Of a DNA stretch of 64,000 nt, positions 2,831 to 44,109 are shown in pieces. Source of the stretch: Limnomonas spitsbergensis (taxonomy: Eukaryota > Chlorophyta > Chlorophyceae > Chlamydomonadales); the NCBI GenBank assembly GCA_037349105.1, contig JAYJMM010000118.1, positions 1,798,001-1,862,000 of the forward strand, read 5' to 3'. Below the pieces are notes generated by a model. That model was given only the letters and a program-made list of their open reading frames with translations. It had not been told where the DNA came from and ran no database searches. A program made the position numbers and the translations under genes. Each line of letters opens with the position of its first letter. Within the stretch, counting starts at the first letter, position 1.

Positions 2831-3184
2831 TCACCAACGGGCAGAAGAGAATACAAGCTGATCATGCTGAATAACGCCTTGACCAGTGTCAATCCACATC
2901 TGTCTAAGCTCCCACTTCTCAATTCTTTGTGCGGATGAAAGCGTGAACTGGTGTGAATCAGATTCAGCATGATCTACATTTTCGTTTAACATAAGTTGGT
3001 GCCAGAGCCGGTTGGGCACCAGCAACTGAGCCGGCGTTATAGATATCTCAGCTTCCACCGGAGGGTTGCATGGTTCTAAGCAATCCTCAGAAATTATGGA
3101 ATCCTGCATCAGAAACATGGATATATCACCATGTCGAGATGCATCATGCGCCATGCAAATCGGAGTTTGTAAGCCGATGGTGCT
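2831..3184 (-). pseudogene. E0 ORF interrupted by E1 insertion (downstream half)
   Basis: Minus-strand open frame beginning STIGLQTPICMAHDASRHGD at the E1 boundary and ending at 2831. When E1 and one TGCT copy are removed, this frame joins in phase to the frame at 22184-22217 (MSRRSDERGES), which supports insertion of E1 into an open reading frame of E0. The product is not recognised; it has no zinc knuckle, protease or RT motif. Confidence 0.45.
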
Positions 3185-3414
3185 TGTCGCACCATAAAGC
3201 AGTAACTGCAATACTATGGTAAATACCGTAAACTCCGGTCAGGACACCTTAGAGAGGTGTCCTCTACTCACAAACACGGTACATCACCGTACACTCATGC
3301 TCCTTGTACTTCAGACAAGAGTGTGTCAACTAGATAACTGTAACTGGAAGGTCCTAACTGGATGTCTCTGCATAGAAGTCTCCGTCTCGTGGGTACCGCC
3401 CCTACCACTTTACT
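3185..3414 (-). repeat. E1 repeat B2 (230 bp)
   Basis: Outer 3' end of E1 in element orientation. It matches 4058-4287 over its whole length. It contains a perfect stem AGGACACCT/AGGTGTCCT around 3239-3261. The low-coordinate end reads TGTCGCACC, the inverted counterpart of the TGTCAC start of A. It is followed at 3415 by one base not in B1 or A1, then by A2, a layout expected of an end-to-end LTR join. Confidence 0.9.
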
Positions 3415-3415
3415 T

Positions 3416-4055
3416 CGCGAGGTGCGCTTCAGGTCCGTGGCGGACTTCTTTCCTCACGGCAGTGACGGACGCCTACGGGCAGGCTCAGTGACTATTCACT
3501 GGCTGCGAGTGCTCTTCGAGTTAAGCAGCTAGGTGGATATTTGCGTATATAGCAATTGACTTAGGTAGCATAGGCCTTCTGGCCGTCTGGGCGCGATCCA
3601 GCAGGGCTATGTTAAGGTGCACTTACCGCGCTACACGCGGGGAGGGAGACGGGACGTAGACTGCGTACTTCGGCTTCGGCAGGGTGGTCTCGGTTCTCTG
3701 GCTGTGGTACTTGTCTCCAGCTATCTCAGCTGGGCTGGTCTAGGCTTGACTTGAGTAAGGGTACTGACTTATGTGAACGTTAGAGGCCTCATACACGGAT
3801 GACGGCCGGTGCTGTTTACAATAGAGGTCTGTCCTTTAGAAAGGGACGAAGTAACTAGCCAAGGCAATTGCCGGGATACAGGGACCCGGCAGGCCCAATA
3901 CAGAGTACGGTAGAACCTGTCAAACTTATCCTGCGTAAGCGGGTTTCTAGGTCTCAGCTCAAATACGAAGACTCCGCAGAGAAGCTGCGGAGTCACCGAT
4001 GACGCTAACTGCGGTCTAAACGGTTCTGTCACGTATACTGTAATATACTGTGACA
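3416..4055 (-). repeat. E1 repeat A2 (640 bp)
   Basis: Same 640 bp as 21544-22183, starting CGCGAGG and ending GTGACA on the plus strand. It includes the 10-bp hairpin GACTCCGCAG/CTGCGGAGTC (about 3970-3994) and the internal arm at 3830-3853 that in A1 pairs with the primer site. In A2 the pairing partner is absent because B2, not the leader, follows. Confidence 0.92.
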
Positions 4056-4064
4056 GCTGTCGCA
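4050..4064. other. B1|A2 junction palindrome of E1
   Basis: The plus strand reads GTGACAGCTGTCGC. The core GACAGCTGTC is a perfect palindrome in which both TG...CA element ends face each other across GC (4056-4057). The same 14 bases occur at the equivalent junction of E2 (44102-44115). I infer this is the site at which a circular form is opened to give the observed ends. Confidence 0.7.
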
Positions 4065-4287
4065 CCATAAAGCAGTAACTGCAATACTATGGTAAATACC
4101 GTAAACTCCGGTCAGGACACCTTAGAGAGGTGTCCTCTACTCACAAACACGGTACATCACCGTACACTCATGCTCCTTGTACTTCAGACAAGAGTGTGTC
4201 AACTAGATAACTGTAACTGGAAGGTCCTAACTGGATGTCTCTGCATAGAAGTCTCCGTCTCGTGGGTACCGCCCCTACCACTTTACT
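4058..4287 (-). repeat. E1 repeat B1 (230 bp)
   Basis: Directly follows the polypurine tract in element orientation, where the U3 start of a normal LTR would be. It matches 3185-3414. No corresponding B copy precedes A1 at the other end of the element, which makes the termini split direct repeats. Confidence 0.9.
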
Positions 4288-4303
4288 CGCCCCCCGCTCC
4301 CCA
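4288..4303 (-). promoter_or_regulatory. E1 polypurine tract
   Basis: The coding strand reads TGGGGAGCGGGGGGCG directly before B1. In LTR retroelements such a purine run primes plus-strand DNA at the start of U3. Its position implies that the reverse-transcribed LTR is B-GC-A rather than A alone. Confidence 0.65.
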
Positions 4304-4420
4304 GCGTGAAGCCCTCCAGGCATGCGCGGGGAGCCGGAAAAAGGGGTGGTACTGAAATAAACTTCTGGAAAAAATATGTACGTAGAAGCTCAAATCATCA
4401 TCTGCCAATATGCCATGTTC

Positions 4421-4530
4421 TGGCCTTCTACAAATCCGCCTGGTTCAGGCCTTCTACAAATCTGCCTGGTTCAGGCCTTCTACAAATCTGCCTGGTTCAG
4501 GCCTTCTACCAATCTGCCTGGTTCAGGCAA
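4421..4530. repeat. 26-bp tandem repeat in E1 3' region
   Basis: About four units based on CAGGCCTTCTACAAATCTGC plus six more bases, starting at 4421, 4446, 4472 and 4498, in the untranslated stretch between the ORF stop (5045) and the polypurine tract. There are no spacers between units, so it is not CRISPR-like. The rest of 4304-5044 shows no other feature. Confidence 0.85.
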
Positions 4531-5044
4531 TCTGCAATCAGGGTAATAAAAAATCAACCGAGTTCAGCTGAAGCGCGATGCGCAGAACCCTACATAGTCA
4601 AGCTGTTCAGCCCACTACTGGCTAGCAAACAGAGAAATTTCAAAGTTATCAGGTCAAGCTAAGAACAACCGCTGCTCTCGCCCCACTGCGCCATAGCCGC
4701 CTGGTCTTCAAAGGCCACAGGAAATGTGCGCCGTAGCAGCGTGATCCGCCCCCTGCTGTGTAATCATTGCCCGAGTTGACTAATTCTCCTCGCTCATCAT
4801 CTTCATAACATATGTACTACCGTAGCCCTGCTGCTATGGTGTTTGAGAAACAAATTTTCATGAAGCTTCCGTAACTCTACTCCTGCGTCTTCCTTCTTCG
4901 GTCTGCTGGCTGCTGGCCCACTGCCTACCGGGTACTAGGACAAGCCGCGCTGCGTCTGCACTTCTGCACTGTAGGCGCCTTCCGTTCCTTGCCAGTTACG
5001 GCGTGGGTGACGCCACGTGCTCAGCGGCCTTGCCGCTCCGGGCT

Positions 5045-8000
5045 TCAGGTCCCGGTAAGATCCTCAAAGGCTGACTCTTCCTCCTCCCTTGCTGCTTCTT
5101 TGGCCACCTTGGCCCTTCTTGTAACTGCTCTCGGGGTGACATTGGCCTCTCCCCGGCCAGTGGTGTACGAGATGTCATACAACCCGTTCGCCATTGGTCT
5201 TGCGATGCCCCGCTCCATTTGCCTTGTTGCTGGGTTGGTGGCCATGACTTCTACCTCAGGCCTGTCCAAGACATCGGCCTCCTGGGCTGTCCTGGCAGCC
5301 GCTCTGGCTGCTGGGCTCGGTCGCCCCTGGACCTGTAAACTGCGCTCTTCTGTGGTGGGCCCTGCTACAGCAGCGGGCCCAGCTCCCTTGTCGTCCGGCG
5401 TGCAGTGTGGGCACAACCACTCGCCCTCAGGCACCTCCTCGAGTACTGGTACCAAGCAGTCCATGTGCCAACCTGTATTGCAGGCATCACACAAAAGCAT
5501 CACCTCTCCGCGATCGGGCAGCTGGCACACCTCGCATGACAGGCTGTTATTGGGTCTGGTTCCACTGAAATCAACCACTCCCCTGAGGTTGGGCAAGTGG
5601 CATGGAGAACAATTGACTGCATTCTCTGTAACTGTGAGGCCATCTGCCCCTTCCAACACCAAAGTTCCCGTCGCCCCCAGCGTTTTGACCCTGAGGATCT
5701 CAGGCCTGGCCTTGGGATCGAGGCTGCGTCGCTCTGATGAATACTTCACATACACGTAATCTCCTTCTGCAAAACGCCTGACCTGGGGGACATACCCTCC
5801 CCCACGGATGCGTGCATAGCGCAGCTTGTCGCGGTGCTGCGCAATTTTGAGATGCTCACCCGCGACTGGCAGTGCCTCTTTGATCCTGGCCACTCTGGCC
5901 AAGAGCAGGTCTGCTGCCTCCTCTGCCGTTGCTACCTTGGCTGTGCTCCAGAGGTCCGCCCCCACTCTGGAGGGGAAGGTGGGTCTCTGTCCGAACAGCA
6001 CCTCGTACGGCGCCATGCGTGTGGCCTGCTGCGGCGAGCATCGGAAGCCTAGGGCTACCCAGGGCACCATCTTGTCCCAGGACTCGTCGCTGCTGCCCTC
6101 CTCGCAGCATTTGCGCAGGCCTGCCTTGAGGGTCTGGACAGCCCTCTCTGAAAGCCCGTCTGCCTGGGGGTGGTTGGCAGAAGTGGTGCGATGGTCAATG
6201 AAGCAGTCCAACAACATGTCCTGAAATTCACCCTGGAACTCTGTTCCCTGGTCTGTCACCACCTCTGCGCATCCCCCGAATCGTGCAACAACATTTTGAA
6301 AGAATGCCAAGGCCGTCACATCAGACGCCTTGCTTGGAATGGGGATTAACTCCACCCATTTTGAGTAATGCTCCACACACACCATCACGAACCGATTTCC
6401 CCTGGACGTGGTCGTGAATGGACCACACAGGTCCACTCCCCACCGGAAAAACAACCCCTCAATGGGTAGCGGGTGCAGGTTGGGCTGTATGTGATTGAAC
6501 GTGGACGCCCTGGCCCTGTCACACACACCACATTCCTGCACCGCCTTCTTGACTGCTGCTCTAAGTCCCCGCCACCAATGCTGCTGCATGACCATGAAAG
6601 CCGTGCGGTGGCTGCCAAAATGGCCCGTACCTGCATGCGCTGTCTGGATTACTGCTAGCCTGTCTTCTGGCCTGGGCACCACACAACGTCTACCGTCAGG
6701 CATGAGTCTCATCAGGACTCCTCCCCTCTCTGATTCCCACTGGAATGGCGCTGCTCTGCGCTGTATTCTAGTCTGTTCTCCTAGCTCTGTTCCCTGGACA
6801 TAAGTCTTTTCACGGAGAAACCTCAAGACGGGCTCATCTGCCCACACATCGACCCTAGCCGACGGTCCTGCAGGACAACCTGGCTGGTCCTTCTCACTCT
6901 CTGCTTCCCTGGGTACTTTGATTCCAACATCAACTTGTTCTGCAGACGCATTCCCACCTGGCTCCTGTGCCGCGTCGGCCCAGTCTGCCGCGGCTGATTC
7001 CCCCAGGCACTGTCTGTATGACGCGGCTGCTTCTCCGCTGCCGGAGCATGCGTTTCCTGCGGTAGCGAGGGCAAAGTGGCTGGACATTAAAGTCGCCCCC
7101 AGAGCTGGGTCCCTGTCCCGGCCTGGCAGCTTTGCCCTGCGTGTCAATTCTGCTGGCATGATCTTAGCACACTCGAGTGCCACACTGAGCCACGCACTTA
7201 GTGCCCATGAATCCATGCCCCTACCCAAGGCTGCCCTTCTGGCTGCCTCTGGGAAGTCCGGGCGCGGCAAGGTGGATCCTACAGCGTACCCCATGGCGCG
7301 CTCACGCTCGTTTGCGTTGGGCTCCTGCAAGTCCCCCATGGGCCTGTACACCATCCCATTTTGCCCGTTCCGGAAAGCATATGATGAGGGCGTGGCCATC
7401 AAACACGGCAACACTTTCCTGGGCTGCCCAGTTACATTGATGCGGTACCCCCCATTGTCCGGACATGATACTACTTGGGCCTTGCTGCCCTTGTCCAGAA
7501 TGTCGTCTACAATCCCCCCGTGGGGTCTGGTCGACGCACGAATCACAAATTCAATATCTGCTGCCGGGGCAATATTCCCCCAATAGTTGCGGGTGCGGTG
7601 GGCGTAAGATCCCACCTGCGCTGCGTCAAACAGCGCCGGTGTTCCCAGAATCCGGCACACCTCCTGAAAAGCCTCAACACTGGCCTTCACACTCTTCTGA
7701 TTCAACTGCATTGCCACATTCTCAATCAGGTACGCTGGCGGCCTAGGCCCCTGCATGAACTGTAGTGTACCCAACAGCTTGACTAACGGGAAGAAAGACT
7801 TGCTTCTCTCTCCCTCGAGCCCACGCCCCTTGCCTGCTGATGACAGGTCCTGGCACTCCCAGCCTGCTACCATGAACCACTGACGCCCCTCCTGGGCGCC
7901 CGCCTCCTGGAGGTGCTTTGCCGTAATGGCATACACATCCTGGGGCAACGCTCTGAATGCCTTATCAAACGCCTTGACCGGAAACAACTGAGGGTATTTC

Positions 8001-11000
8001 CTGTGCAACTGCACCAGGCGCCCCCCTGCGATCTCTCTGACTTCCTCACTGATATCAGCATACAGGTACTGAACCACTGGGATACCCGCCCTGAGCACCA
8101 TCTCCAACCCTGAACACATACCTCCAAAGGGCTCGAAAAGGACGACTCCCTCGGTCTCCATGGCCCGCACTGCCCCACCCGACAGACAAGCTGTGTCCAG
8201 GCCTGCATGTGAATGAAGGGGCGTCACCCGGGGCAGGTCAGCTAGAACATCACTGATCATTGTCCTGGCCCGCTCCCTGTTGCTGAATGCCTGTTCTGCT
8301 GTACTGACAGGCTGCGCCTGCTCATCATCGTCAGTGGCGGCTGAGGATATCTCCTGCCCTACCGGCGCTGTCACGTAAGCTGCCTCTGCAGCTCGCAGTA
8401 TCTGTACTCTTCTTCTGCCTTCTTGTGCCATGCGCACCATCTGGTCTGCATGCCACTGGTTCACTCTGCCCAACCCCGTGAGCAAAGCTACCTGCTTCCC
8501 TCCTGCCCCCTCCTGGGCTGCTGGCTCGGGAGCTGCTGTATCGAGCCTGGCCCCCGTGCGATCAGCTGAGGATGGGAGTGGTGATCTGGACGGGATGTCC
8601 GCATTCTGATGGCATGCCCCTGAGCGGTGGACAATGGTAATGTCCAGCTCTTGAAGCATGAGGGCCCACCTAGCATGCTGGCCTACCAACGTCTGATTGT
8701 CCATGAGGTAAGTGAGCGGCTCATGGTCGGTGATGAGATGCACCTTGCACCCGAACAGCATGTGACGGTATGTGCGTGCTGCATACACTGCGGCCAGCAT
8801 CTCCCCCTGGAACGAGGAATAGTTCCTCTCGCTCTTGTTCAGGGATCTGGACGTGCATGCCACCATATACTCCCGCCCACTGTCGTCACACTGTCCTAGC
8901 ACGGCACCTATGCCCTGCTTAGAGAAATCTGTGTACAGCAAGAATGGCCTCGGCGGCCCCCTGCCGTCTGGCCCTGTCCCACTGTAATCTGGCCTGCGTA
9001 GAACTCGTCCTCCCTCGCACATCTCTGTTTTGATCAACTGGAACGCCTGCGACTGCTCTGGCCCCCACACAAACGGGACCCCCTTGACCAGCAATGCGTT
9101 GATGCATGCTGCCTTTTTCGAGAAATCCGGGATGTAGCACCGGTAGAAATTCAAGAATCCCATGACCTCCTGAATGTTTTTCACCGATGCGGGCTCTGGC
9201 AGCGCCATAACCGCTGCTATCTTGGCTGCGTGTGGCGTGAGCCCCTGGGCCGACACATTGTGACCTAGGTACTCTACCGTTGCACACCCAAACAGGGACT
9301 TGTCGGGGTGCGCCCTTAATCCTACACTGTGGAGCATGTCTAACATCAGCTCCACATGCCTGATGTGCTCTGCTGGTGTGTCACTGTACACTAGCAGATC
9401 ATCAATGAATGCCACGCAGAACGCACTCAGGCCTGCCCTGGCAATCTCCTCCTCCATCATACGCTGAAAGAAGGGAGGTCCATTGCGCAGACCGAAGTTG
9501 AGCTTTGTGTACATCCAAAGCTCAGGGCCCATCCAGAAAGCTGTCTTAGGCTGGTCCTCGACCTTTATAGGGATCTGCATGAACCCCGACCGGAGATCAA
9601 CCTTGCTGAATATCTTAGCAGTTCCCAGGTTCTGAAAAATGGTCTCCATCCTGGGGATTGCAAACTCCTGCTTAGCCGTACGCAGGTTTAACCTGCGCAT
9701 ATCGTGCGCTATCCGGTGGTCAGTCCACTCCCCAGTCTCAGCACTCTTCTTGGCTGCCACTACTGAGTTGGCCGCAAACTTGATAGGCCCCCCCTGGGGT
9801 ACCTTGACGATAATACCTGCCTGTATCATTGGCTGGCACTTTTCTTTAAAAATGGCTGCCTTGGGCGGCGGCATATCCCTGGACTTCTGAAAGCACGAAC
9901 TGACCTCGTCTTCTAAAGCCAGTGTAAACTCACCCTGCGTGCCGCAGTAGCCAGGCAGATCCTCCATGGAGTAAGCGAACGCTCCTTGGCGATCCCTGAG
10001 GCTTTGCTCCAGGCTCTCCTGCTGTGCCGCAGTGAAGTCGGGGTGCTGGCCCAGCAACCACCCCTCCTTGGTTTTGACGTACTCCGCGGGCGGCTCCACG
10101 ACTCCTCCCGGCTGGAACATGTCGATCATCTCAGCCGCCTGCGGGTCGTCCTCCGCGGGCGGCTCTTCCCTGCCAGTGTCATTGCCACTTTGCCAGCTCT
10201 CCTGCTGGCTGCAGGCACCCCTCCGGCTGGCACTCCCCATGGGAATGACTGCTGGCGGGCGCAACCATCCAGACGACAGCTTTGCTGCTGCCTCTTGTCC
10301 AGACACAAAAGCCCCTTGGCCTGCCGTAAATCCTCCTCCCCGCACGCCCTGCCCGGTGGCTCGCGCCCCTGGCACACACACCGACAGCAGGAGCCACACC
10401 AGTATCAGCTGGAGCGCCCCCGTAAGGATCCCCTTGAATGCTGTACAGGTGAGAAGTCCTCTGCAAGCTGGTATCTGCCTCGTGGGTTTCTGCGGTAGGT
10501 GTTCTGCGGGCTGTGCGCCTGGCTCTGCGCTCTGCGCCGGCCTCTGCTGTCCAATGGCCCATGTGATCTCTAGATCCACTTGGCTGATCCTGAGTGGCCG
10601 GACTGGGCAGTCCAATCCTGGTCGGCTGCCACGGTTCCTGTCCTCGGCTGCCCTCTGCGCCTTTCCCTCGCGCCGCCTAGCCTTTTTGGACTTTTTCCCT
10701 CGCAACTCGGCAGCGTCAGTCCAAGCCGCACCCGCCCTTTCTGGCCCTGCTCTTGGTATCTGACCTGTGCTGCCATGTGCTGTCCGCTCCTGCCTGTGAA
10801 TGGCGCGCTGCACAGTGTTGCTGCCGTCATCCGCGGGCTCCTCAGGCCCACAGCCCTGTCGCGAGTTTGCCCGAGCGCCGGCAGCCATCCTTGCAAGGGC
10901 CTCCCCCCTGCTGGTGCTCGCCTGGCTGCTGCGGCTGTCCGACGGCTGTTGGGTGTCCACTCCCTTTGCCCCCATCCTGTTGAGGGCTGATATTCTCTCT

Positions 11001-14000: not shown

Positions 14001-17000
14001 TGATTCATGGCTAGGGCCTCTACCACCATCTGCCAGTGGTGCCTTTGCTGGGCCACCTGCCCCTCTGGCACCACCTGGAATGTTACCGGCATTGCTGCGG
14101 CCTGGTAGCTCGCCCCCCGAGCTGCTGCGTTCTGCCCCAACCCTTCATGGACCGACATCATGCACGTGTGCCTCTCCTGGCTGACCCACCTGGAGTTGTA
14201 AGACTGCCCCGCTGGGCCCGGCCGTCCTGGCGGGCCTGGCAGCTCACTCGGTCCAGCTGTCTCCTGCTGCCTTTTCCACTCTTCAAAGGAGACCCCTGTG
14301 GCGGCCTCGTAAGCTCGCCTCATGCTATCTTCTGACGCCTCCTGGCTCCTGCCTGGTCCTCTGACTCCCCAGCCCCTTTCCGGGCCTCCTGCTGCCCGTG
14401 ACCGGTCAAACCGGCTGCTGTCGCCAGGCTGCGAGGCCTCTCCCTGCTCTGGGCACGCGCTAGCGAAGTGCCCTGGCTTTTGACAGTTGAAGCACACCCC
14501 CCCGTCGCGGGGTCCGAGGACATTCCTTTGTCCCCCCATCACGCTGCGCCCTGCCTGGGCCCTGCCCGGCGGGCTCTGGTTGGAGGTTCCCCCTCTATCC
14601 TGCATTCTCTGTTCAAGCTGGTATGGCCTGGCGTGGCTACCTGTGCCTCGCTCTTGCGACCTGCCCCTGGGCTGGCTCCCACGATTCCCGCTGGGTGACT
14701 GCTGCCTCCTGCCGCTAGGCCTGTCGAAGCTATCATCGCGGTCTGGCCGCTGGGTTCGCGCCTCTGGTGTAGGCACCGCCCCGCGGCGTTCTGCACTTCG
14801 AGCCCTCTGCGCGCTCCTGCTGCGCTCCCTGGCTACTGTATGCACGGCATCATCTGGGGTTGCTCCCCTGTGCCGCACTCGTGTTTCCCCGCTGGCCTGC
14901 CTGGTTCCGCCACTGCCCCCTGGCTCTTGCTGACCAGTGGCTTGCTGCTCCTGGTCCTGCAGCTTCTCCTGGTTCAGATTTTCGTCCTCCTCCGCTAACT
15001 CCCTTGCGGATTGAAACATGGCTGCCATATGCTCTGCCAGCGCCGGGTCACCTGGGATGGCTGACTGCAGCTGCTCTCCGGTCTGCTGGCTCCCCAGGTT
15101 GTCGTACAGCGCTCGCAGCTGGTCTGCACGCAAGATGTATTGCCGTTGTACCTCCGTGAGCCGTATATTGGCGTCCTGGAGGCCTGTCCACCTGACCTGC
15201 TGCAACCTCAGGTATTCAATTGTTGCAGCCGCCTGGCGGTACAGCAGCTCTTCCCTTGCCTTGACGTCGTGCTGCAGTAACTCTACTTGTTGCTGCAGCC
15301 TCAGCACCTGCATGTACTTCGGGGTCCTTCGATCCTGGACCTCTTCCTCCTCTGATTCCTCTGATACTTCCCCCTCATCCCTGCCGACAGTCTCCTCCTG
15401 TCCACGGTTTGCTGTGATCCCTTGCTTCCCTTCTGCTGCTGCCGGGGCGTCGTCCATAACGCCCCCATCAGCCGCACCGGCCCTCTCGCCTTTGCCAGGC
15501 ACCTGCACCTCCGAGTGCCTGCTGGGTCCTGCTGACGCAGCTCTTGCTGCTGCGGCTCCTCCAAAGCCTACTCGCCCTTTGGCCCCTGGCGATGTTCCTT
15601 GGGCTGCGGGGCCTGCCTCAGGCCTCTGCAGTATCTCCCGGATCCTCTGCTCACACTCCTCTGTAGAGTGCTGGCCAGGTTCTCCGCACAAGACGCATGG
15701 GTAGCGCGGGCTTGCCTCCACACATCTCCGAATGACCTCCTTTTCGTATTCCGGCCTTGACTCTGCCTTGCGTGCCATTGCTAACTCAGCAGTGGCCACT
15801 GCCTGTGCTGCTGCCTGGCCCGGCAGTGACGCAGCGGCCTTGGCTTTCACCTTGCCCTCCCTGGGCCCTGCAGCCTGCGTTTGCCCGCACTGGCGCGGCC
15901 TGGGCACAGTCTCCTGCGGGTCCTCACGGCTGCTCCTGCCCGCATCTGCGGTGCTTCTGCCTGCACCTGCGGCTGTTCCGCGACTCTGTCCCACCTTCTG
16001 GTCAGCCCTCATGGCGGCACCTGCGTGTGTGGCCATGGCGTGCTGTAAGAGCGGCTCGTGTTCTTCCTCTACCCTGGCCGCGGGCCACCTTTCGCGTTCT
16101 GCAAATCCACACCGGATTCCTGCCCATGCTACTGCTGCTGCCTGGTACCCTCCTGCTGGGGATGCTAGGACCAACGGCAGCGTCAGGTCCCTGACCCTTC
16201 GGACTGTCTGGGGGCCATCTCTGGGGCGTAATGTCAGCCTTCCTGCTGCCTCTAAAACCCCATTGTACTTGAGAAACTCCGGGTTCCCCACCAAGTGTTC
16301 GTATGCATCGGGCGGTGTTTTTACGACCCTGACCACCGTGGGTTCCATAATAGCATTGGGCCCTCCATATCCGTACACCACGTAAATGAACAGCACCCCA
16401 TACAGATCTGCCCCTGCATTGTCTGTCGTGCGGATCTTCTCATCCGTCCTGATCAGCTCTGCCCCCATGGCGACTAACTGTTCTGCAATGTTGACTGTGA
16501 TCACATGACAGGAGCACGCTGAGTCCATGAGGGCCTTCTGTGCCACCAGGACCTTTCCTTTGACCATAAGGCCCACACATTGCTCCAGGTTGCTTCTGTC
16601 GTTCTTAAAATACTGCAGCCTTGGTGCAGCTGTGACCACCCTGCTTTCCTGCCTGCCCTTACTGGCCTTACCCCTGTGGTCTTCTGAACCCATGGGCATA
16701 GTGGTGAATGACAGCGCCGTCAGCCTCTCGTTCAACTTGAACACCTGCAGTCGGATGTCAGACATATCGTCAGCTAATTTGCTCAAAACCAGTCTCTTTG
16801 CTCCCTTCCTGGAGGCAGGTTCCACGAGCCTTTGCTCAGGTTCCTCCTCCGGACAGGGTTCTGGCAAGAATGACCTAGGACGAGCGTTGTGAGCCGCCTG
16901 CTTGAATCCTGCGGATTTGGGCACTAGCCCAACCTGCGTCATGAGTGCTACGGACTCGCTGAGCATCTCTGCCATAGTCTGTTGCCAGCCCTCTGGCTCG

Positions 17001-20000
17001 GCTTGCCCCGTTGGGCTGCTTAGGTGAGACACGTGTGCTGCCTGCTGAGCCTGACCCCCCTGGCCAGGCCCTGGCCGTTGGTACTGCCTGTTGTTCTGAT
17101 TCCGCTCGTACGGTCTGCCTGCAGGCTGACTCTGCTGCGGCCTTGGTGGGAGCGGGTACTGCTGCTGCTGCGGCCTGGACTGCCCAGCTGTAATGTCAGC
17201 AGCAAGTGGCGTCGGCCTGCGCTCATCCCTGGGTCTGGGCGCCCTGCAATCCCTGGCCAGGTGCGCCGTGCTACCACACTGGTAGCATGCCTTGACTGCC
17301 CCTGCAGCGCCTTCTGCGCTGTAATTTGGTGCTCCTGATTGATCTGCCCAGGTAACTCCTCTGGGTTTGTCACTCCGCTGTTGCTGGGCAGCTGCTGCAC
17401 CTGCGGGGTTCCCTGCCCCGTCAAGGCGTGTCCGCATCTCCCATTGTCCTGTTCTCTCCCTCCTTGTTCTGTTGGACTGCGCCTCCCCCTGGCTAGGCCC
17501 ACTGGCCATCTGTTTGAGGCTTGCGCCTCCTAGATCCCCCATTTCCAGGGCAAACTTTTCCCACAGCACCACCTGCTGTGTGAGTACTGCAATCTGATCT
17601 TCGTCTGTCATGCTGAGGTACCCTGGGACGGTCATAACAAACTTGCTCAGTTTGGCCTTAGCGAGCGCTGGAAGTCCATCATGGAACAGATGCGAGACTG
17701 AGTGCCTCCTGCCAAAGTGGTCCACTGCATCCCTTGAGATCTGCAGCAACTCTGCTGTTGACAGCACTCTGTGAGCAAATGCTTCCACCGTCTCCTCTGG
17801 CTTGACGTCAGGGTCGAGAGTGGTCTTCACCCCTAGCCTGAGGTTGGAAATGGCTGTCCTCTCATCCGAGGTTGGCTTTCCCACCTCTGCTTGAACCACT
17901 TTGATCCACAAGGTTAGCAGCGAGGCTTCACAACCCTGCTCTTCTGCTGGGGCAACCCACATCCCCCTTATCCTTTCTGCTTCTCTGGCAGCCCTGTCTC
18001 CTGCATGGGGCGCCGCCCTGATGGCTACCATCAGCGGCCCCACGCTAGCCGGCTTGCTGTCCCATAGCTTGACCAGTGATTTCACCAACATCGTCATGGC
18101 TGATGGCGACTGGCACGACCCAGCTATTTCTCCGGCCACCACAGCCAGCGCTGGCGGGTCGTCTGACAGTGCCAGCCTGTTGTGCGATCCCCAATATCCA
18201 CATGCTTGGCAATATTTCCTGGCTGCAACCGCGCCTGGGTGCGACATATCCAACACTGGCACGTTGCCCTGGATGGCTGGAATTTTTGTGAATTTGGCTA
18301 CCCCTGCCAGCTGCAGGACCATTTGCTGCTGCAGCTGCAGGTTCACCCTTGCCTGTTCCCTCTCGAGCCTCTTCATTTCCTGGTCGCTGGACTCCTGCCT
18401 GGCTCCTGGCCTGCGTCTGTCCACTCCTCCTGGTCCTGAATCAACCGACTCTGACCGTGACCTAGATCCTCCACCGCCGCCCCTCGATGGGCTGCGACCT
18501 GAACGGTATCTGTCGTGTCTGTAATAATCCTCCTCCTGATCATGATCTTCTCGCGATGGCTGCCCGCCTGCCCTTCCTGCAGAGCTTCTACTTCCCTCGG
18601 GTGGCAGCCGTTCTGATTCGCCTCTGCCTGGTCTGCTGTCAGAGCCAGGCCTCCAAGACTGCGCTCTGCCCGGCTCTGCCTGTCCCCTGGGCAGCTCCTG
18701 GTCTTGCTCATGCCTCACCCCTCTGCTGTGTTCCGCTGGTCCCCTGGGTTGCTCCTGGCTTTGCTGGCTTGGCTGTTCCCTGCCATCTGCCTGCTCTCTG
18801 GGCGGCTCCTGGCTATGCTGGCTTGGGTGTTCCCTGCCGTTTGCCTGTCCTCTGGGCTGCTCCTGGCTATGCCGGTTTGGCTGTTCTCTGTTGTATGCCT
18901 GCCCCCTGGGCGGCTCCTGGCTCTGCCAACCTGGCTGCGTCCCGCCTGTGTAATTCCTGGCATAGGAATCCGACTGCGTTTCCTCTCTGGCTTCCTGCAT
19001 TCTTGGACCACTGCTCCGTGCGCTGCCTGCAGGCTCATTTCTCCTGGCTCCACCTGCCGTGCCCGCCTGCCTGTTCCTCAGGAATTCCTTGATGTAATCC
19101 ACCTGGGTTTCCTGGCATGTGTTCTCTTTGTCCTCGACTATGCGTAGCAACGCATAAGACTCTTGCCTGCTTGCTCTACGTGTTGCTGTGCCTTGCTCTG
19201 CCATCCTGGCTAGTGATCGGCTAGTCAACTCCGCCCTTTCGCTGGCGGCTGGACTGCTAGCTCTGGGCGCTTCCCTGCCCCTTGGTCGCCCCCTGAGGCT
19301 TGGCTCGCTGCTGACCTCGAAGGCCTCTGATCTGAGTGCCGGGGTAGGCGCGGCTCTTGCCTGCTGCTGCCACCTTTGCACCTCCCTGAGCTCCTCCGGT
19401 CGCTGCACTGCTGTTTCAAATCCTTCCCATGCCTGGTCCTCCTCCTCTTCCGGCTCGGATCCAGGTTCCACTTGATTTCCTGTTACCTCATTGCACCACT
19501 CGTCTGCGAAGGCCTTAACAGCCAGTGCTGCTTCGCGTCCCGCCCTTCCCTTGGACACCTGTCCAAGAGCGGCTAACAGCGTTGCCCTGTCCTGCCCTGT
19601 GTGGGGGATACCCAGCATGGCCTTTGTTGCCCATCCCCGCAGATGATGGGCCTTGAACTCCTCAATAGCTGTGACCTGGTCCTGGAAATGCAGGAACGTC
19701 CTGGAGCAAACTTGCTTCCACAGATCCGTTGCCCACTGCAAAATTCCTGTCCAACCGATTGGCTGCACCTGTACTTCTGACTCCTTTTCGTCGCACACTG
19801 CTCCCCCAGCCCTGGGGCGCTCTGGCTCACTCGGGCTGGTATCCTGCGCTCCTGATGGATCGTGAAAAAATCCTCGCAGGATTTCCTTGTGGCTGTCGTC
19901 TCTCTGCGTCAGGCTGCTAGATACCTCCTTGGATTTCTGCACAGGTCTGCCCACACTGGGCGGAAACCTGGACAGCGGCGTCCCGTAAACTGTGGATCCA

Positions 20001-20827
20001 GCTCCTCTTCTGACCAGCACCCTGCGCGGTCGCAGCTGCTGCCTTGGGCGCAGTCCTGTCTTAGACTGCTGCCCCTTCTCTTCTCGAACTGGATCTGACA
20101 GTTCTTCCTCGGATATTTGGTCAGCCCAGGGATTTCCTACCGGCACAGCTGACTTTTCCCTTTCCTTGCCGACTTGCGAGCTCTGCCTGCCCGCTGCTGG
20201 CTGGGGCTCAGCTTCCTCGTGTTTGACCCCTGCAGGCATACTCCTGGCCTCCATTTCCTCTGCTTTCATTCGCTGTTTGTCTGGGCATGCTTTATCACAG
20301 CCTGCTACCTCTCTTGGTGCTGCGGCTTCCTCGGCCCTTTGATCCGGCTGACTGGGTTCGCTGATCCGTTGCGCAACCCTGGCCACCCTGGGCGGATTCT
20401 GCTGGGGCGTAGCCTTGGGCTCGCTGCTCTGCCGCGTGTCACAGCTCTGGGACACCTCTGTTGCTTGATCCAAGATCAGCTCTGGTGTTCCAGCCTGCGT
20501 CTGCCACTGCTCGAATTCCAGGCTGCCCCTGAAATCGGCGGGCACTGGACCCCCTCGGCCGATGCCTTTGCGCGTCACCAGCGCTGAGCCGTCTGCCTGC
20601 GCCCCTGCCTCTCTGGGCGGTACGCGGCCCGGCTCTGGCACTTTGCAGTTTCCAGCGGGCGGTTCCACTGGCCCTGCCAGCTTCGCCGCCACCAACAATG
20701 CTTCTGCAGCCAGCTCATCGCTAGCCTCCATCAGGTTTACACCCGGCTCCAGCCCCCTCAGACGCCCACTTCTCCGTTGGGCGTCAGGGTGCTGGTGCCT
20801 ATCGGGGTTTAGATCTACGTCTGTCAT
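5045..20827 (-). CDS. E1 polyprotein (gag-PR-X-RT-RH-DNMT-IN-PHD), 5260 aa
   Basis: One ORF from ATG (20827) to TGA (5045). Domains by residue: low-complexity charged region with 20-residue QPRGQA/GREQPSQ repeats (about 640-710); CCHC knuckle 1 (1181-1194); retropepsin-like domain with D1435-S-A and LVGNPEFLKY; CCHC 2 (1711-1724); coiled-coil-like stretch (about 1870-1960); CCHC 3 (2112-2125); conserved unknown region X (about 2500-2950); basic stretch then hydrophobic segment 3466-3490; RT with FIDDLLVY (D3809-D3810); RNase H (D3967, TDHEPL, HQNADIPSR); C5 methyltransferase (about 4228-4560); integrase with an H2C2 zinc site and D4799, D4859, E4894 (D-35-E); GPY/F-like tail; C4HC3 PHD finger (about 5095-5145). 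It is several times longer than a usual gypsy polyprotein and no internal stop or frameshift was seen. Which segments are cleaved out is unknown. Confidence 0.93.
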   Translation of the reverse strand: MTDVDLNPDRHQHPDAQRRSGRLRGLEPGVNLMEASDELAAEALLVAAKLAGPVEPPAGNCKVPEPGRVPPREAGAQADGSALVTRKGIGRGGPVPADFRGSLEFEQWQTQAGTPELILDQATEVSQSCDTRQSSEPKATPQQNPPRVARVAQRISEPSQPDQRAEEAAAPREVAGCDKACPDKQRMKAEEMEARSMPAGVKHEEAEPQPAAGRQSSQVGKEREKSAVPVGNPWADQISEEELSDPVREEKGQQSKTGLRPRQQLRPRRVLVRRGAGSTVYGTPLSRFPPSVGRPVQKSKEVSSSLTQRDDSHKEILRGFFHDPSGAQDTSPSEPERPRAGGAVCDEKESEVQVQPIGWTGILQWATDLWKQVCSRTFLHFQDQVTAIEEFKAHHLRGWATKAMLGIPHTGQDRATLLAALGQVSKGRAGREAALAVKAFADEWCNEVTGNQVEPGSEPEEEEDQAWEGFETAVQRPEELREVQRWQQQARAAPTPALRSEAFEVSSEPSLRGRPRGREAPRASSPAASERAELTSRSLARMAEQGTATRRASRQESYALLRIVEDKENTCQETQVDYIKEFLRNRQAGTAGGARRNEPAGSARSSGPRMQEAREETQSDSYARNYTGGTQPGWQSQEPPRGQAYNREQPNRHSQEQPRGQANGREHPSQHSQEPPREQADGREQPSQQSQEQPRGPAEHSRGVRHEQDQELPRGQAEPGRAQSWRPGSDSRPGRGESERLPPEGSRSSAGRAGGQPSREDHDQEEDYYRHDRYRSGRSPSRGGGGGSRSRSESVDSGPGGVDRRRPGARQESSDQEMKRLEREQARVNLQLQQQMVLQLAGVAKFTKIPAIQGNVPVLDMSHPGAVAARKYCQACGYWGSHNRLALSDDPPALAVVAGEIAGSCQSPSAMTMLVKSLVKLWDSKPASVGPLMVAIRAAPHAGDRAAREAERIRGMWVAPAEEQGCEASLLTLWIKVVQAEVGKPTSDERTAISNLRLGVKTTLDPDVKPEETVEAFAHRVLSTAELLQISRDAVDHFGRRHSVSHLFHDGLPALAKAKLSKFVMTVPGYLSMTDEDQIAVLTQQVVLWEKFALEMGDLGGASLKQMASGPSQGEAQSNRTRRERTGQWEMRTRLDGAGNPAGAAAAQQQRSDKPRGVTWADQSGAPNYSAEGAAGAVKACYQCGSTAHLARDCRAPRPRDERRPTPLAADITAGQSRPQQQQYPLPPRPQQSQPAGRPYERNQNNRQYQRPGPGQGGQAQQAAHVSHLSSPTGQAEPEGWQQTMAEMLSESVALMTQVGLVPKSAGFKQAAHNARPRSFLPEPCPEEEPEQRLVEPASRKGAKRLVLSKLADDMSDIRLQVFKLNERLTALSFTTMPMGSEDHRGKASKGRQESRVVTAAPRLQYFKNDRSNLEQCVGLMVKGKVLVAQKALMDSACSCHVITVNIAEQLVAMGAELIRTDEKIRTTDNAGADLYGVLFIYVVYGYGGPNAIMEPTVVRVVKTPPDAYEHLVGNPEFLKYNGVLEAAGRLTLRPRDGPQTVRRVRDLTLPLVLASPAGGYQAAAVAWAGIRCGFAERERWPAARVEEEHEPLLQHAMATHAGAAMRADQKVGQSRGTAAGAGRSTADAGRSSREDPQETVPRPRQCGQTQAAGPREGKVKAKAAASLPGQAAAQAVATAELAMARKAESRPEYEKEVIRRCVEASPRYPCVLCGEPGQHSTEECEQRIREILQRPEAGPAAQGTSPGAKGRVGFGGAAAARAASAGPSRHSEVQVPGKGERAGAADGGVMDDAPAAAEGKQGITANRGQEETVGRDEGEVSEESEEEEVQDRRTPKYMQVLRLQQQVELLQHDVKAREELLYRQAAATIEYLRLQQVRWTGLQDANIRLTEVQRQYILRADQLRALYDNLGSQQTGEQLQSAIPGDPALAEHMAAMFQSARELAEEDENLNQEKLQDQEQQATGQQEPGGSGGTRQASGETRVRHRGATPDDAVHTVARERSRSAQRARSAERRGAVPTPEARTQRPDRDDSFDRPSGRRQQSPSGNRGSQPRGRSQERGTGSHARPYQLEQRMQDRGGTSNQSPPGRAQAGRSVMGGQRNVLGPRDGGVCFNCQKPGHFASACPEQGEASQPGDSSRFDRSRAAGGPERGWGVRGPGRSQEASEDSMRRAYEAATGVSFEEWKRQQETAGPSELPGPPGRPGPAGQSYNSRWVSQERHTCMMSVHEGLGQNAAARGASYQAAAMPVTFQVVPEGQVAQQRHHWQMVVEALAMNHYGTRPAGSARSMAHAVEFLRNLQQRGCPAPCEGWPGILQQFLDKEWDIYNAQMDEFERIEQEAGLQHRADGWETSSSEAGTSDSEEGHEPQAPVAVHEEEAAMPCPGTPEGNADTGVGVAVAAAGTRNGLSRQDHHPGAKGAAAMSSEDTTVGAVRTHHSTTPRSSAARWEEEDRGLQSSRSRGERPAAGNEDSQFTQAGTGHRGRSGSRGRARPAPDLPRLPESRCFVQWYRLGEEMPEASSSEAMITLPAQSKDGLCRLQNHRLLEDRSHTCVNIEAAMQAVARLIFPWDAVTAVLLGAALKGFIQPSTRMEVYMQRGWSQHPIYAYCVSEMVELAVKEGITAVAAADRAHPDVPDSARTEGAWQGAQPGFMRTPWAEDCVHQLMEHTALRDRAFYVPVQALREHGWGDRPEDGAHSGAGLCHADRPRRCEATVEASVTIPRMVAGQAVPWGMDPGEARAAIPVQQLVTYYYEELEEGEMPASAAWIHMHASRDDMPVFLFARREGNVAITRCASVDEAEFHAHTHARGADPATWAVMLMALQRVLLPGQLSAAMRHVWGVDDQWAPLEMTDCPTWPYGAQRSPADGPMWEDEEEFARSPFAVERLEACVHQWVRWERKAWHDNRASSVGPYWQANGMTVQLWRQAHPAGVRTLHPLFRGAGADTYMEELEELRTQPVPGRWMVGRWGSHHWDPASITDGPIQDTYEEPTEQGHVAFVTTLGATASSWEGLEPMEDMEVSALEAATGDWAEPQTVPDIASHEDGGLLEEKNEDPSEGPPSLVQDSESEDEWGADRSPCPARISLTRADTGDADGMEEPASAGPGPGSPVWGRVEDLVQLRQEWMREVAQEQAAMEERRTRRAEIERSSKAALEETAHKVTAGVSPQQAADQCAGEPKGAAAGQANSRSPGDVQISPPAQAAAREPWGDPAAYSTERWVAVLRHFVDELDVLRRQEMGQQEASQEASLVFRLRMLPQPDPNPRMGGYSRAVRELQEELTERISALNRMGAKGVDTQQPSDSRSSQASTSRGEALARMAAGARANSRQGCGPEEPADDGSNTVQRAIHRQERTAHGSTGQIPRAGPERAGAAWTDAAELRGKKSKKARRREGKAQRAAEDRNRGSRPGLDCPVRPLRISQVDLEITWAIGQQRPAQSAEPGAQPAEHLPQKPTRQIPACRGLLTCTAFKGILTGALQLILVWLLLSVCVPGARATGQGVRGGGFTAGQGAFVSGQEAAAKLSSGWLRPPAVIPMGSASRRGACSQQESWQSGNDTGREEPPAEDDPQAAEMIDMFQPGGVVEPPAEYVKTKEGWLLGQHPDFTAAQQESLEQSLRDRQGAFAYSMEDLPGYCGTQGEFTLALEDEVSSCFQKSRDMPPPKAAIFKEKCQPMIQAGIIVKVPQGGPIKFAANSVVAAKKSAETGEWTDHRIAHDMRRLNLRTAKQEFAIPRMETIFQNLGTAKIFSKVDLRSGFMQIPIKVEDQPKTAFWMGPELWMYTKLNFGLRNGPPFFQRMMEEEIARAGLSAFCVAFIDDLLVYSDTPAEHIRHVELMLDMLHSVGLRAHPDKSLFGCATVEYLGHNVSAQGLTPHAAKIAAVMALPEPASVKNIQEVMGFLNFYRCYIPDFSKKAACINALLVKGVPFVWGPEQSQAFQLIKTEMCEGGRVLRRPDYSGTGPDGRGPPRPFLLYTDFSKQGIGAVLGQCDDSGREYMVACTSRSLNKSERNYSSFQGEMLAAVYAARTYRHMLFGCKVHLITDHEPLTYLMDNQTLVGQHARWALMLQELDITIVHRSGACHQNADIPSRSPLPSSADRTGARLDTAAPEPAAQEGAGGKQVALLTGLGRVNQWHADQMVRMAQEGRRRVQILRAAEAAYVTAPVGQEISSAATDDDEQAQPVSTAEQAFSNRERARTMISDVLADLPRVTPLHSHAGLDTACLSGGAVRAMETEGVVLFEPFGGMCSGLEMVLRAGIPVVQYLYADISEEVREIAGGRLVQLHRKYPQLFPVKAFDKAFRALPQDVYAITAKHLQEAGAQEGRQWFMVAGWECQDLSSAGKGRGLEGERSKSFFPLVKLLGTLQFMQGPRPPAYLIENVAMQLNQKSVKASVEAFQEVCRILGTPALFDAAQVGSYAHRTRNYWGNIAPAADIEFVIRASTRPHGGIVDDILDKGSKAQVVSCPDNGGYRINVTGQPRKVLPCLMATPSSYAFRNGQNGMVYRPMGDLQEPNANERERAMGYAVGSTLPRPDFPEAARRAALGRGMDSWALSAWLSVALECAKIMPAELTRRAKLPGRDRDPALGATLMSSHFALATAGNACSGSGEAAASYRQCLGESAAADWADAAQEPGGNASAEQVDVGIKVPREAESEKDQPGCPAGPSARVDVWADEPVLRFLREKTYVQGTELGEQTRIQRRAAPFQWESERGGVLMRLMPDGRRCVVPRPEDRLAVIQTAHAGTGHFGSHRTAFMVMQQHWWRGLRAAVKKAVQECGVCDRARASTFNHIQPNLHPLPIEGLFFRWGVDLCGPFTTTSRGNRFVMVCVEHYSKWVELIPIPSKASDVTALAFFQNVVARFGGCAEVVTDQGTEFQGEFQDMLLDCFIDHRTTSANHPQADGLSERAVQTLKAGLRKCCEEGSSDESWDKMVPWVALGFRCSPQQATRMAPYEVLFGQRPTFPSRVGADLWSTAKVATAEEAADLLLARVARIKEALPVAGEHLKIAQHRDKLRYARIRGGGYVPQVRRFAEGDYVYVKYSSERRSLDPKARPEILRVKTLGATGTLVLEGADGLTVTENAVNCSPCHLPNLRGVVDFSGTRPNNSLSCEVCQLPDRGEVMLLCDACNTGWHMDCLVPVLEEVPEGEWLCPHCTPDDKGAGPAAVAGPTTEERSLQVQGRPSPAARAAARTAQEADVLDRPEVEVMATNPATRQMERGIARPMANGLYDISYTTGRGEANVTPRAVTRRAKVAKEAAREEEESAFEDLTGT
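5380..5560 (-). CDS. E1 C-terminal PHD finger (within polyprotein)
   Basis: Residues about 5095-5145 read CEVCQLPDRGEVMLLCDACN and end with WLCPHC, giving the C4HC3 zinc pattern with the conserved W-CP-C ending. PHD fingers bind histone H3 tails, often methylated or unmodified K4. Position after the integrase matches where chromodomains sit in chromoviruses, so a role in targeting to chromatin is a reasonable inference. E2 has the equivalent finger. Confidence 0.9.
5900..6640 (-). CDS. E1 DDE integrase domain (within polyprotein)
   Basis: N-terminal H2C2 zinc site (TAHAGTGHFGSHRTAF ... ECGVCDRAR, about 6500-6630), then the catalytic core with GVDLCGPF (D4799), VVTDQGTEFQGEF (D4859) and LSERAVQTLK (E4894), spacing 60 and 35. 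A 4-bp duplication flanking E1 agrees with cut-and-join by a DDE enzyme. No tyrosine-recombinase R-H-x-R-Y signature was seen despite the split-repeat ends. Confidence 0.92.
7140..8150 (-). CDS. E1 DNMT3-like DNA cytosine-C5 methyltransferase domain (within polyprotein)
   Basis: Predicted to move a methyl group from SAM to cytosine C5. Motif I is EPFGGMCSGLE (F4234); motif II region YLYADISEE; motif IV is GWECQDLSSAGKGRGLEGE with nucleophile C4325; motif VI YLIENVAMQ (E4369); motif VIII SYAHRTRNYWGNI (H4410); C-terminal signature ERERAMGY then ALGRGMDSWALSAWL. The C-x-DLS loop, GL-G, AHR-R-YWGN and the ER--GY/LG--W ending resemble DNMT3/DRM enzymes more than DNMT1. The usual Pro before the catalytic Cys is Glu here (Met in E0 and E2). 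It lies between RNase H and integrase in E1 and E2. C5 methyltransferases inside retrotransposons have been reported in dinoflagellates and a charophyte, so capture itself has precedent. Confidence 0.88.
8560..10080 (-). CDS. E1 reverse transcriptase and RNase H domains (within polyprotein)
   Basis: Copies element RNA to DNA and removes the RNA strand. Visible RT motifs: KVDLRSGFMQIPI, FGLRNGPPFFQRMM, FIDDLLVYSD at 9380-9410 (catalytic Asp pair), EYLGHNVSAQG, FLNFYRCYIPDFS. RNase H follows with LLYTDFSKQGIGAVLG (8890-8945), FQGEMLAAVYAARTYRH and TDHEPLTYLM. This is standard Ty3/gypsy (Metaviridae-type) order and sequence, with all catalytic residues present. Confidence 0.93.
16300..16600 (-). 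CDS. E1 retropepsin-like domain (within polyprotein)
   Basis: Residues about 1410-1510 read KALMDSACSCHVITVNIAEQ, followed later by LVGNPEFLKYNGVLEA and RLTLRPRDG. The layout (hydrophobic-D-S-x, then ILG-D-FL-like) is that of a retroviral-type aspartic protease. The catalytic triad is DSA rather than DTG/DSG. E2 carries DFG at the same place with the matching LFGNPD downstream (54817-55190), so the position is homologous. Whether it is active with Ala at the third position is open. Confidence 0.55.
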
Positions 20828-21519
20828 TCTACAGGCAATTAGCGAACCGCACGGTCCTGCAAACGTGCTGGCGACACCCTCTACAAGACCTGCTAACGCT
20901 AGGCTTCTGCCCCCTTGTTCCTACTGCAATCTGGTGAGGATTTTGCGAGTCAAGAGTGGATGGCAGGTACAGCACTATGCAGGAAAGGCCTCGCCTTTCC
21001 GCTTTTCTGCTCACTAGTTGCAATCTGGCGGAATCCTCCTTCGCCCTTTCAGCTCTGCCCACCTTGCTGGCCGGGCTGCTTCTAGATGTCTCACGTCCAC
21101 GTGGATGTCACACGCCCTGCGTGGATGTTGCCTTTTGCGTAGCTTCCGCTCAGCTCTGCGTTCCTGCGGGGATCCTTTGGCACACCCACAAGATTTCAAA
21201 CTTGGATGTTCTATCCACAAGTTTACTTCTGTCAATGATGAGAAATTGGATCCACCTGATCTCAATCCGCAGTCACACAGGGAATTATCTGCTGGGTGTA
21301 TAAATCCACAGCCAGATCTTCAAGCCACTTCTGGACTCAGCACCAAGCTGCCACGCTCAATGATTCTCAGAGTTTAACTTGGCAATCTCTCTCTGGAGAT
21401 TACCACAGCAAAGTGCAGTTCAAATGCTGTCCAAGGTCGTTTGTATGCAAACAAATTTCCAATTCGCTGCACAAGCACCTTTAGCAGGAATTGGCAAATT
21501 GAGCTGATCAGGCTAAATC
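20828..21519 (-). other. E1 5' leader (692 nt)
   Basis: Untranslated stretch between the primer site and the ATG at 20827. No long ORF on the coding strand. I see nothing further recognisable in it. Confidence 0.6.
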
Positions 21520-21543
21520 TACTTCGTCCCTTTCTAAAGGACA
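21520..21543 (-). promoter_or_regulatory. E1 self-complementary primer-binding site
   Basis: These 24 bases directly abut the end of A1. They are a perfect reverse complement of 21958-21981 inside A1 (element sense: TACTTCGTCCC... pairs with ...GGGACGAAGTA). If the transcript 5' region folds back and is cut after ...AAAGGACA, its 3' end would sit exactly at the A1/primer-site border, the geometry needed to prime minus-strand DNA. This is the self-priming arrangement known for Tf1-type elements. Confidence 0.75.
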
Positions 21544-22183
21544 CGCGAGGTGCGCTTCAGGTCCGTGGCGGACTTCTTTCCTCACGGCAGTGACGGACGC
21601 CTACGGGCAGGCTCAGTGACTATTCACTGGCTGCGAGTGCTCTTCGAGTTAAGCAGCTAGGTGGATATTTGCGTATATAGCAATTGACTTAGGTAGCATA
21701 GGCCTTCTGGCCGTCTGGGCGCGATCCAGCAGGGCTATGTTAAGGTGCACTTACCGCGCTACACGCGGGGAGGGAGACGGGACGTAGACTGCGTACTTCG
21801 GCTTCGGCAGGGTGGTCTCGGTTCTCTGGCTGTGGTACTTGTCTCCAGCTATCTCAGCTGGGCTGGTCTAGGCTTGACTTGAGTAAGGGTACTGACTTAT
21901 GTGAACGTTAGAGGCCTCATACACGGATGACGGCCGGTGCTGTTTACAATAGAGGTCTGTCCTTTAGAAAGGGACGAAGTAACTAGCCAAGGCAATTGCC
22001 GGGATACAGGGACCCGGCAGGCCCAATACAGAGTACGGTAGAACCTGTCAAACTTATCCTGCGTAAGCGGGTTTCTAGGTCTCAGCTCAAATACGAAGAC
22101 TCCGCAGAGAAGCTGCGGAGTCACCGATGACGCTAACTGCGGTCTAAACGGTTCTGTCACGTATACTGTAATATACTGTGACA
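21544..22183 (-). repeat. E1 repeat A1 (640 bp, 5' terminal)
   Basis: Element-sense start TGTCACAG at 22183; end ...CCTCGCG at 21544. It contains the primer arm 21958-21981, the hairpin 22098-22122 and near its start an AT-rich TATA-containing stretch (22160-22180) that could serve as promoter. If transcription starts just upstream of the primer arm, about 200 bp act as U3. Confidence 0.92.
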
Positions 22184-43319: not shown

Positions 43320-43382
43320 TGTCGCGGCACAGGGGTGCACCCTAAGGAATGGGTGCACCAAGCGAAAAGAACACAAGACATT
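43320..43382 (-). repeat. E2 repeat B2 (63 bp)
   Basis: Identical by eye to 44110-44172. Plus strand starts TGTCGCGGCACAGGGGTGCA and ends GACATT. It joins A2 directly, as in an LTR-to-LTR circle join. Confidence 0.9.
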
Positions 43383-44107: not shown

Positions 44108-44109
44108 GC

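Follow-up and report, generated by a model that had tools for sequence, protein, structure and literature searches.

The window, a 64,000-nt stretch of the Limnomonas spitsbergensis genome (260 Mb), carries two retrotransposons, E1 and E2. Self-comparison of the sequence gives E1 (3185-22183) the order A1-interior-B1-GC-A2-a-B2, read 5' to 3' on the minus strand. The two A units (3416-4055 and 21544-22183) are 640 bp each and 100% identical, as are the two B units (3185-3414 and 4058-4287) at 230 bp each. A leader lies between the primer site and the open frame. E1 comprises the following features, with protein domains assigned by profile match:

22184..22187, minus strand: 5' target-site duplication AGCA
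21544..22183, minus strand: A1, 640 bp, starting TGTCAC
21958..21981, minus strand: 24-nt segment inside A (A positions 203-226), complementary to the primer site; predicted self-primer/RNA 5' end
21520..21543, minus strand: predicted primer binding site TGTCCTTTAGAAAGGGACGAAGTA, immediately 3' of A1
5045..20920, minus strand: open frame, 5291-aa polyprotein, stop to stop
14447..14497, minus strand: CCHC zinc knuckle (PF00098)
9254..9718, minus strand: reverse transcriptase (PF00078)
8648..8953, minus strand: RNase H (PF17917)
7583..7876, minus strand: C5 cytosine methyltransferase-like domain (PF00145)
6506..6667, minus strand: integrase HHCC zinc domain (PF17921)
6167..6442, minus strand: integrase core (PF00665)
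5402..5536, minus strand: PHD finger (PF00628)
4288..4302, minus strand: predicted polypurine tract GGGGAGCGGGGGGCG, abutting B1 upstream
4058..4287, minus strand: B1, 230 bp, ending GACA
4056..4057, minus strand: constant GC spacer, the centre of palindrome GACAGCTGTC
3416..4055, minus strand: A2, 640 bp
3415, minus strand: single extra A at the A2/B2 joint, variable among copies
3185..3414, minus strand: B2, 230 bp, ending GACA
3181..3184, minus strand: 3' target-site duplication AGCA

The E1 polyprotein is encoded in a single 15.9-kb frame (window 5045-20920) that places the methyltransferase-like domain between RNase H and integrase and the PHD finger after the integrase. About 1570 aa that lack a Pfam match separate its second zinc knuckle from the reverse transcriptase (RT). 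In the Pfam profiles, the order of RT, RNase H and HHCC/DDE integrase is that of Ty3/Gypsy elements. The integrase core has 35 positions from the D of TDQG to the E of SERAVQ. The best solved-structure match of the integrase part is Ty3 Gag-Pol, and among solved integrases those of Ty3 and foamy virus match best. These profile and structure matches identify a Ty3-type RT-RNase H and an HHCC/DDE integrase in the polyprotein.

A search with tyrosine recombinase profiles came back empty at E<=1, both for the two halves of the E1 open frame and for seven opposite-strand ORFs of at least 200 aa, and we reject a self-encoded tyrosine recombinase on this basis. We found 17 relatives. Three are organism-named (two from Haematococcus lacustris and one from Tetrabaena socialis) and point to a probable chlorophyte host of the same order, and the others include metagenome sequences; no relative in viral contigs was confirmed. 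The 3' untranslated region of E1 contains tandem 26-bp repeats (window 4401-4530) just upstream of the polypurine tract, and broken matches suggest that their number varies among copies.

E2 (60089-43320) has the same order on the minus strand, A1-interior-B1-GC-A2-B2, with repeats unrelated to those of E1. Its A pair is 95.3% identical and its B pair (63 bp) 100% identical. The integrase-PHD piece is 43% identical to its E1 counterpart; judged by sequence, E2 is a distant relative of E1.

59360..60089, minus strand: A1, 730 bp, starting TGTCAC
59345..59359, minus strand: predicted primer binding site, 15 nt complementary to A positions 122-136
44947..50857, minus strand: pol region with a broken frame (RT, RNase H, methyltransferase-like, integrase, PHD)
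44173..44180, minus strand: G-run (predicted polypurine tract) upstream of B1
44110..44172, minus strand: B1, 63 bp
44108..44109, minus strand: GC spacer
43383..44107, minus strand: A2, 725 bp
43320..43382, minus strand: B2, 63 bp

No target-site duplication was found at the ends of this E2 copy. The first-pass annotation had described a 640-bp A at both ends of E1 with a 230-bp B on the 3' side only, flanking A2, and an E2 with the same plan built from unrelated units (730/725 and 63 bp); unit lengths and order agree with this description. Its further statement that the elements encode an H2C2-DDE integrase and no visible tyrosine recombinase is borne out by the domains found and by the empty recombinase search of the E1 frame and the seven opposite-strand ORFs.

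Outside the two elements, the plus strand between them has an ammonium transporter match (window 35838-36464), with further pieces downstream recognized by eye. A dispersed 453-bp repeat occurs twice (window 23077-23528 and 61020-61472, 91% identical).

Genomic copies, their ends and target-site duplications

We obtained 45 genomic matches to the E1 B-A-B unit and 42 to A1 plus leader, and examined 40 regions of each; four short partial B-A-B matches and two short partial A1 matches were left out. All copy counts given here are samples, the best ~40 of hundreds to thousands of candidates per search, and are biased to well-matching copies. A1 starts with TGTC after differing flanks and is followed by the primer site in 40/40 sampled E1-family A1 copies, one of which (on contig C27) adjoins an older piece of A. 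The 3' regions are similarly uniform: 38 of the 40 have B-GC-A-x-B, one of them with an extra A-x-B unit, and the remaining two are a solo A-B and the inner joint of a dimer. GC lies exactly between B and A at 40/40 B-A junctions in these regions.

Thirty-five E1-family copies could be paired, A1 with B-A-B. The other five A1 copies had no listed B-A-B partner, and a further B1 search located none for them. An exact 4-bp target-site duplication flanks 34 of the 35 pairs, with ends TGTC...GACA; the exception is on C41. For the E2 family, 40 A1 places were listed, of which 32 were examined, one was the window's own and seven were left out. A1 starts at TGTC in all examined copies (12/12 and 20/20), and 9 of 11 pairs have a 4-bp target-site duplication, the two without being a C4 copy and the window's E2.

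The junction motif GCGACAGCTGTCAC occurs 1194 times in the genome, against five occurrences of a reversed-pattern control. We sampled 20 loci with this motif, drawn from the first 100 listed places with arrays and most already covered places left out. They hold 21 junctions, and a second B copy follows 536-1646 nt downstream in 18. One further junction has its second B at 2911 nt, reaching the next junction, and two have none within 3 kb.

The A...B-GC-A-B plan is thus real and general in the host genome, and is not a product of chance or a single copy. Ordinary B-A LTRs at both ends, the arrangement that would speak against this plan, were found in none of the copies examined in these samples. 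The Ty3/Gypsy trait of whole identical LTRs at both ends is absent: the 5' end has A alone and the 3' side has B-GC-A-B.

Several variant arrangements were also seen. A solo A-B unit with the target-site duplication TTAG (L087, C102:1931440-1933109) is the permuted counterpart of a solo LTR. Three listed places on C83 (L035/L088/L084) form a 34.9-kb dimer that shares one B-GC-A within a single target-site duplication, a further dimer-like copy lies on C28 (L130/L149), and one copy has an additional A-T-B unit (L072, C116:6005196). An E2-type element is apparently inserted in the primer site of an E1-type element (L165, C26:490638-490698). At G000:C15:1173902-1215550 the junction motif recurs every ~885 bp over ~42 kb, and similar repeats lie near contig starts on C17 and C18; these are presumably LTR units (A-B-GC) of a related family in long satellite-like tandem arrays.

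Reverse-transcription signals and the A2/B2 joint

The primer complementarity begins at the first base after A1 and spans 24 nt in E1 and 15 nt in E2. Counted from the first primer-site base, it extends over 23-24 nt in 37 of 40 E1-family copies. Point changes shorten it in the other three, one of which (L033) also carries a matched change on both sides. A predicted fold of the presumed E1 RNA 5' region closes the primer-site stem (z -3.39). The E1 and E2 primer sites are therefore predicted to support self-priming by the A-internal segment of the element's own RNA.

With a primer site after A1 and a polypurine tract before B1, the standard LTR mechanism leads one to expect a cDNA LTR of the form B-GC-A. 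An A-B LTR with ordinary ends is rejected, since A1 is directly followed by the primer site and B1 directly preceded by the polypurine tract. The genomic ends fall mid-way in the predicted B-GC-A LTR, at the palindrome GACA-GC-TGTC. TGTAA, which serves green algae as a poly(A) signal, is found in A at position 236 (E1) and position 707 (E2), places consistent with an RNA that ends within A2, upstream of B2.

The outer ends of such a cDNA would be the end of A and the start of B, which meet in the genomic copies at the A2/B2 joint. Among 35 E1-family joints, 28 have no extra base, four have T, one TG and two A. Among 26 E2-family joints (including two pairs with shared flanks), three have no extra base, 13 have T, five TA, four longer or filler sequence and one a deletion; seven of the 13 T-type joints lack the first base of B. 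The extras TG and TA equal the first two bases of the primer site, TG in E1 and TA in E2.

Several observations bear on whether the joint is inherited. First, two sets of copies that are identical in B1-GC-A2 differ at the A2/B2 joint. Second, joint labels placed on the tree require six changes against a shuffled mean of 6.8, a value as low being reached in 35 of 200 shuffles, and clustering is undetectable. Finally, within a single E1-family copy 0-4 mismatches separate A1 from A2 (four copies also show gaps) and 0-3 separate B1 from B2; for the seven most divergent copies, the closest A2 from any other copy is 13-20 differences away. This within-copy likeness in divergent copies implies that both repeats are remade from one template. 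Among close E1-family relatives the comparison is uninformative: for nine copies, the A2 of another copy is at least as close as their own A1. The A2/B2 joint thus looks newly made in each cycle, and its variation resembles that of an end-to-end cDNA joint, in keeping with the earlier suggestion that the A2/B2 join is an end-to-end join of the LTR.

We also identified six E2-type copies in which B2 does not adjoin A2. In three (on C120, C37 and C124), unrelated DNA follows the A2 end after a T or TA, which indicates that the A2 end was a free DNA end. The A1 end could be read in two of these three and has a normal TGTC and no target-site duplication. Of the others, one is truncated by a few bases, another carries a 55-nt filler ahead of B2, and the last is dimer-like, its A2 running into a primer site and a polypurine tract lying upstream of its B.

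Proposed integration route and alternatives

The sequence record is probably best explained by treating E1 and E2 as Ty3-type LTR retrotransposons whose integrase likely cuts a palindrome inside the LTR and whose cDNA ends are likely joined to each other. First, transcription would begin within A1 (near A position 203 in E1), and the 5' part of the RNA would pair with the primer site and so prime its own reverse transcription. Second, normal strand transfers would yield a linear cDNA, (B-GC-A)-interior-(B-GC-A), with the primer site and polypurine tract setting its limits. Third, the joint variation suggests that the outer cDNA ends, the A end and the B start, are joined, most simply in a 2-LTR circle, and often keep one or two left-over primer-site bases. 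Fourth, the DDE integrase would cut GACA^GC^TGTC after CA on both strands, in the LTR beside the primer site, leaving 2-nt 5' GC overhangs like ordinary 3'-processed ends. Finally, as the copies show, the target contains TGTC...GACA ends flanked by a 4-bp duplication, and the product is A1-interior-B1-GC-A2-(x)-B2.

Because B-GC-A occurs twice in a symmetric 2-LTR circle, opening at either site predicts that half of the copies have the form A-B-A-interior-B. B-GC upstream of A1, which marks this form, was seen in none of 72 examined A1 copies (0/40 E1-family and 0/32 E2-family); within this count, the flank of L157 does not end in GACAGC, and L159 and L160 share a flank. Random opening at either site is rejected on this count, and the mechanism needs an added asymmetry. 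The integrase may assemble at the LTR beside the primer site because that LTR is completed first, or it may be guided there by other sequence. A double cut that would give A-interior-B only was not seen: the five B1 places on contigs covered by the junction-motif listing (on C7, C9 and C16 and two on C17) continue into GC-TGTCAC.

Other observations also count against the proposed route. The A at 2 of 35 E1-family joints is not accounted for by primer-site copying, and target-site duplications are missing from one E1-family pair (C41) and two E2-family pairs (C4 and the window).

The copies had initially been read as 2-LTR circles opened at the internal B/A site. The TGTC starts and the joint variation support this reading; its opening step needs amendment, as the opening occurs only beside the primer site and not at either site. 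As for timing, the A2 ends fused to unrelated DNA in E2-type copies indicate that cDNA ends can be free at integration, and they suggest that the ends may be joined to each other during or after insertion. We regard a closed circle before integration as likely and favour it over repair after insertion.

The main alternative, which we consider possible though on the whole doubtful, dispenses with a free circle. The integrase would cut the palindrome of the 5' LTR in the linear cDNA and insert the A1 start and the B2 end together, and the host would join the remaining break between the A2 end and the B2 start within the chromosome. This variant shares the first, second, fourth and fifth steps with the proposed route and differs in the time of joining, and the probabilities assigned to the two overlap. 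It draws support from the A2 ends fused to unrelated DNA in three of the six E2-type copies that lack an adjoining B2 (no target-site duplication in the two with a readable A1 end), and from filler and deletion joints, which resemble break repair. The one-sided opening would also be explicable if the 5' LTR became duplex before the 3' LTR. It is harder to reconcile with the clean joints of most E1-family copies (28 of 35 have no extra base) and with the length of the E2 B2, which is only 63 bp; the piece cut off would have to be held by the integrase.

A quite improbable alternative is that the order is inherited, the RNA running through B2 and the whole A-interior-B-A-B being copied with no new A/B joint per cycle. 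Most E1-family copies do share the same joint, without extra bases. Against this, joint variants are not detectably clustered on the tree, the joint differs between copies with the same B1-GC-A2, the extra bases mostly correspond to the primer site, and B1/B2 and A1/A2 stay alike within divergent copies.

It is more improbable still that the split repeats are the work of a tyrosine recombinase, either hidden or acting in trans, as they are in PAT, Kangaroo and Ngaro, although the repeat order equals the definition of those elements given in PMC4157794. The 4-bp target-site duplications in 34 of 35 E1-family pairs oppose it, since the DIRS1 recombinase model described in PMC3266345 makes none, as do the TG...CA ends of E1-family copies. 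No such recombinase was detected at E<=1 in the E1 ORF or the seven opposite ORFs, and an HHCC/DDE-type integrase is present, which recombinase elements lack according to PMC3783388. There is a negligible chance that the plan is an artefact or reflects damage to an ordinary LTR element through nesting, tandem duplication or misassembly. Tandem LTR units and dimers do occur in the host genome, but 34 E1-family copies have the same breakpoints with differing flanks and target-site duplications, and so does a second lineage whose repeats are unrelated, which already refutes this reading.

Relation to known elements

E1 resembles Ty3/Gypsy elements in its RT-RNase H-integrase order, its short target-site duplication and the Ty3 Gag-Pol structure match of its integrase. 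A C5 methyltransferase in pol is also carried by the Ty3/Gypsy element KnitGypsy-Dnmt3, as reported in PMC5890265. E1 departs from Ty3/Gypsy in that its integrated ends lie inside the LTR set by the primer site and polypurine tract, giving A...B-A-B instead of two whole LTRs, and in having a PHD finger after the integrase and a 5291-aa frame.

Split direct repeats of the form A-coding-B-A-B, as in E1 and E2, are described for PAT, Kangaroo and Ngaro (PMC4157794). The A...B-A-B order in E1, E2 and their copies confirms the likeness to the terminal design of these elements that had been noted at the outset. PMC5890265 also describes a C5 methyltransferase in SymbioDIRS-Dnmt3. Unlike this element and PAT, Kangaroo and Ngaro, E1 has a DDE integrase, a 4-bp target-site duplication and TG...CA ends, and no tyrosine recombinase was detected in it; the lack of target-site duplications in recombinase elements is described in PMC3266345 for DIRS1-like elements.

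Palindrome cutting has precedents in retroviruses. In foamy virus, the integrase cleaves both strands of the 2-LTR palindrome just 3' of CA, which produces a 2-nt 5'-AT overhang (PMC1180852), and HIV-1 integrase cuts its own 2-LTR palindrome (PMC1905944). The foamy-virus palindrome likewise has CA and TG two bases apart, with an AT overhang there and a GC overhang predicted in E1. In foamy virus and HIV-1, however, the palindrome is the joint of the cDNA ends and the provirus keeps whole LTRs, whereas E1 and E2 have it built in midway along the LTR, at a place other than the cDNA joint.

Self-priming is also known. Tf1 uses an 11-nt primer complementarity and has ordinary LTR ends. The complementarity of the E1 family is longer than these 11 nt (23-24 nt in 37 of 40 copies). 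E1 and E2 are predicted to share the layout of Tf1 and Tj1 (PMC4600332), in which the primer site pairs with the 5' part of the same element's RNA. Among the papers listed in our literature searches, which lay mostly outside subscription journals, none treats split direct repeats together with a DDE integrase. The parts are thus known singly (split repeats in PAT and Kangaroo, palindrome cutting in foamy virus, self-priming in Tf1), and their combination and its genomic record look new.

Whether 2-LTR circles are integration precursors is an old question in retrovirology. Such a role has been argued for foamy virus (PMC1180852) and for HIV-1, where PMC4372172 argues that the circles can feed integration as a reserve. 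For one element lineage, the host genome itself holds an answer: the inserted ends are not those predicted for the cDNA, whose ends are seen as an internal joint in the complete copies examined. The split-repeat design, which is used to classify tyrosine-recombinase elements, also occurs with a DDE integrase, and programs that search for LTR elements on the assumption of a whole LTR at each end would misread E1-like elements.

We lean, by a modest degree, towards a more general reading in which this lineage integrates only from end-joined (2-LTR) cDNA, its integrase acts in a restriction-like manner on a palindrome built into the LTR, and its split repeats arose independently of those of tyrosine-recombinase elements. 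If an end-joined precursor is indeed obligatory, the circle, long considered a dead end in retroviruses, would be the required form here.
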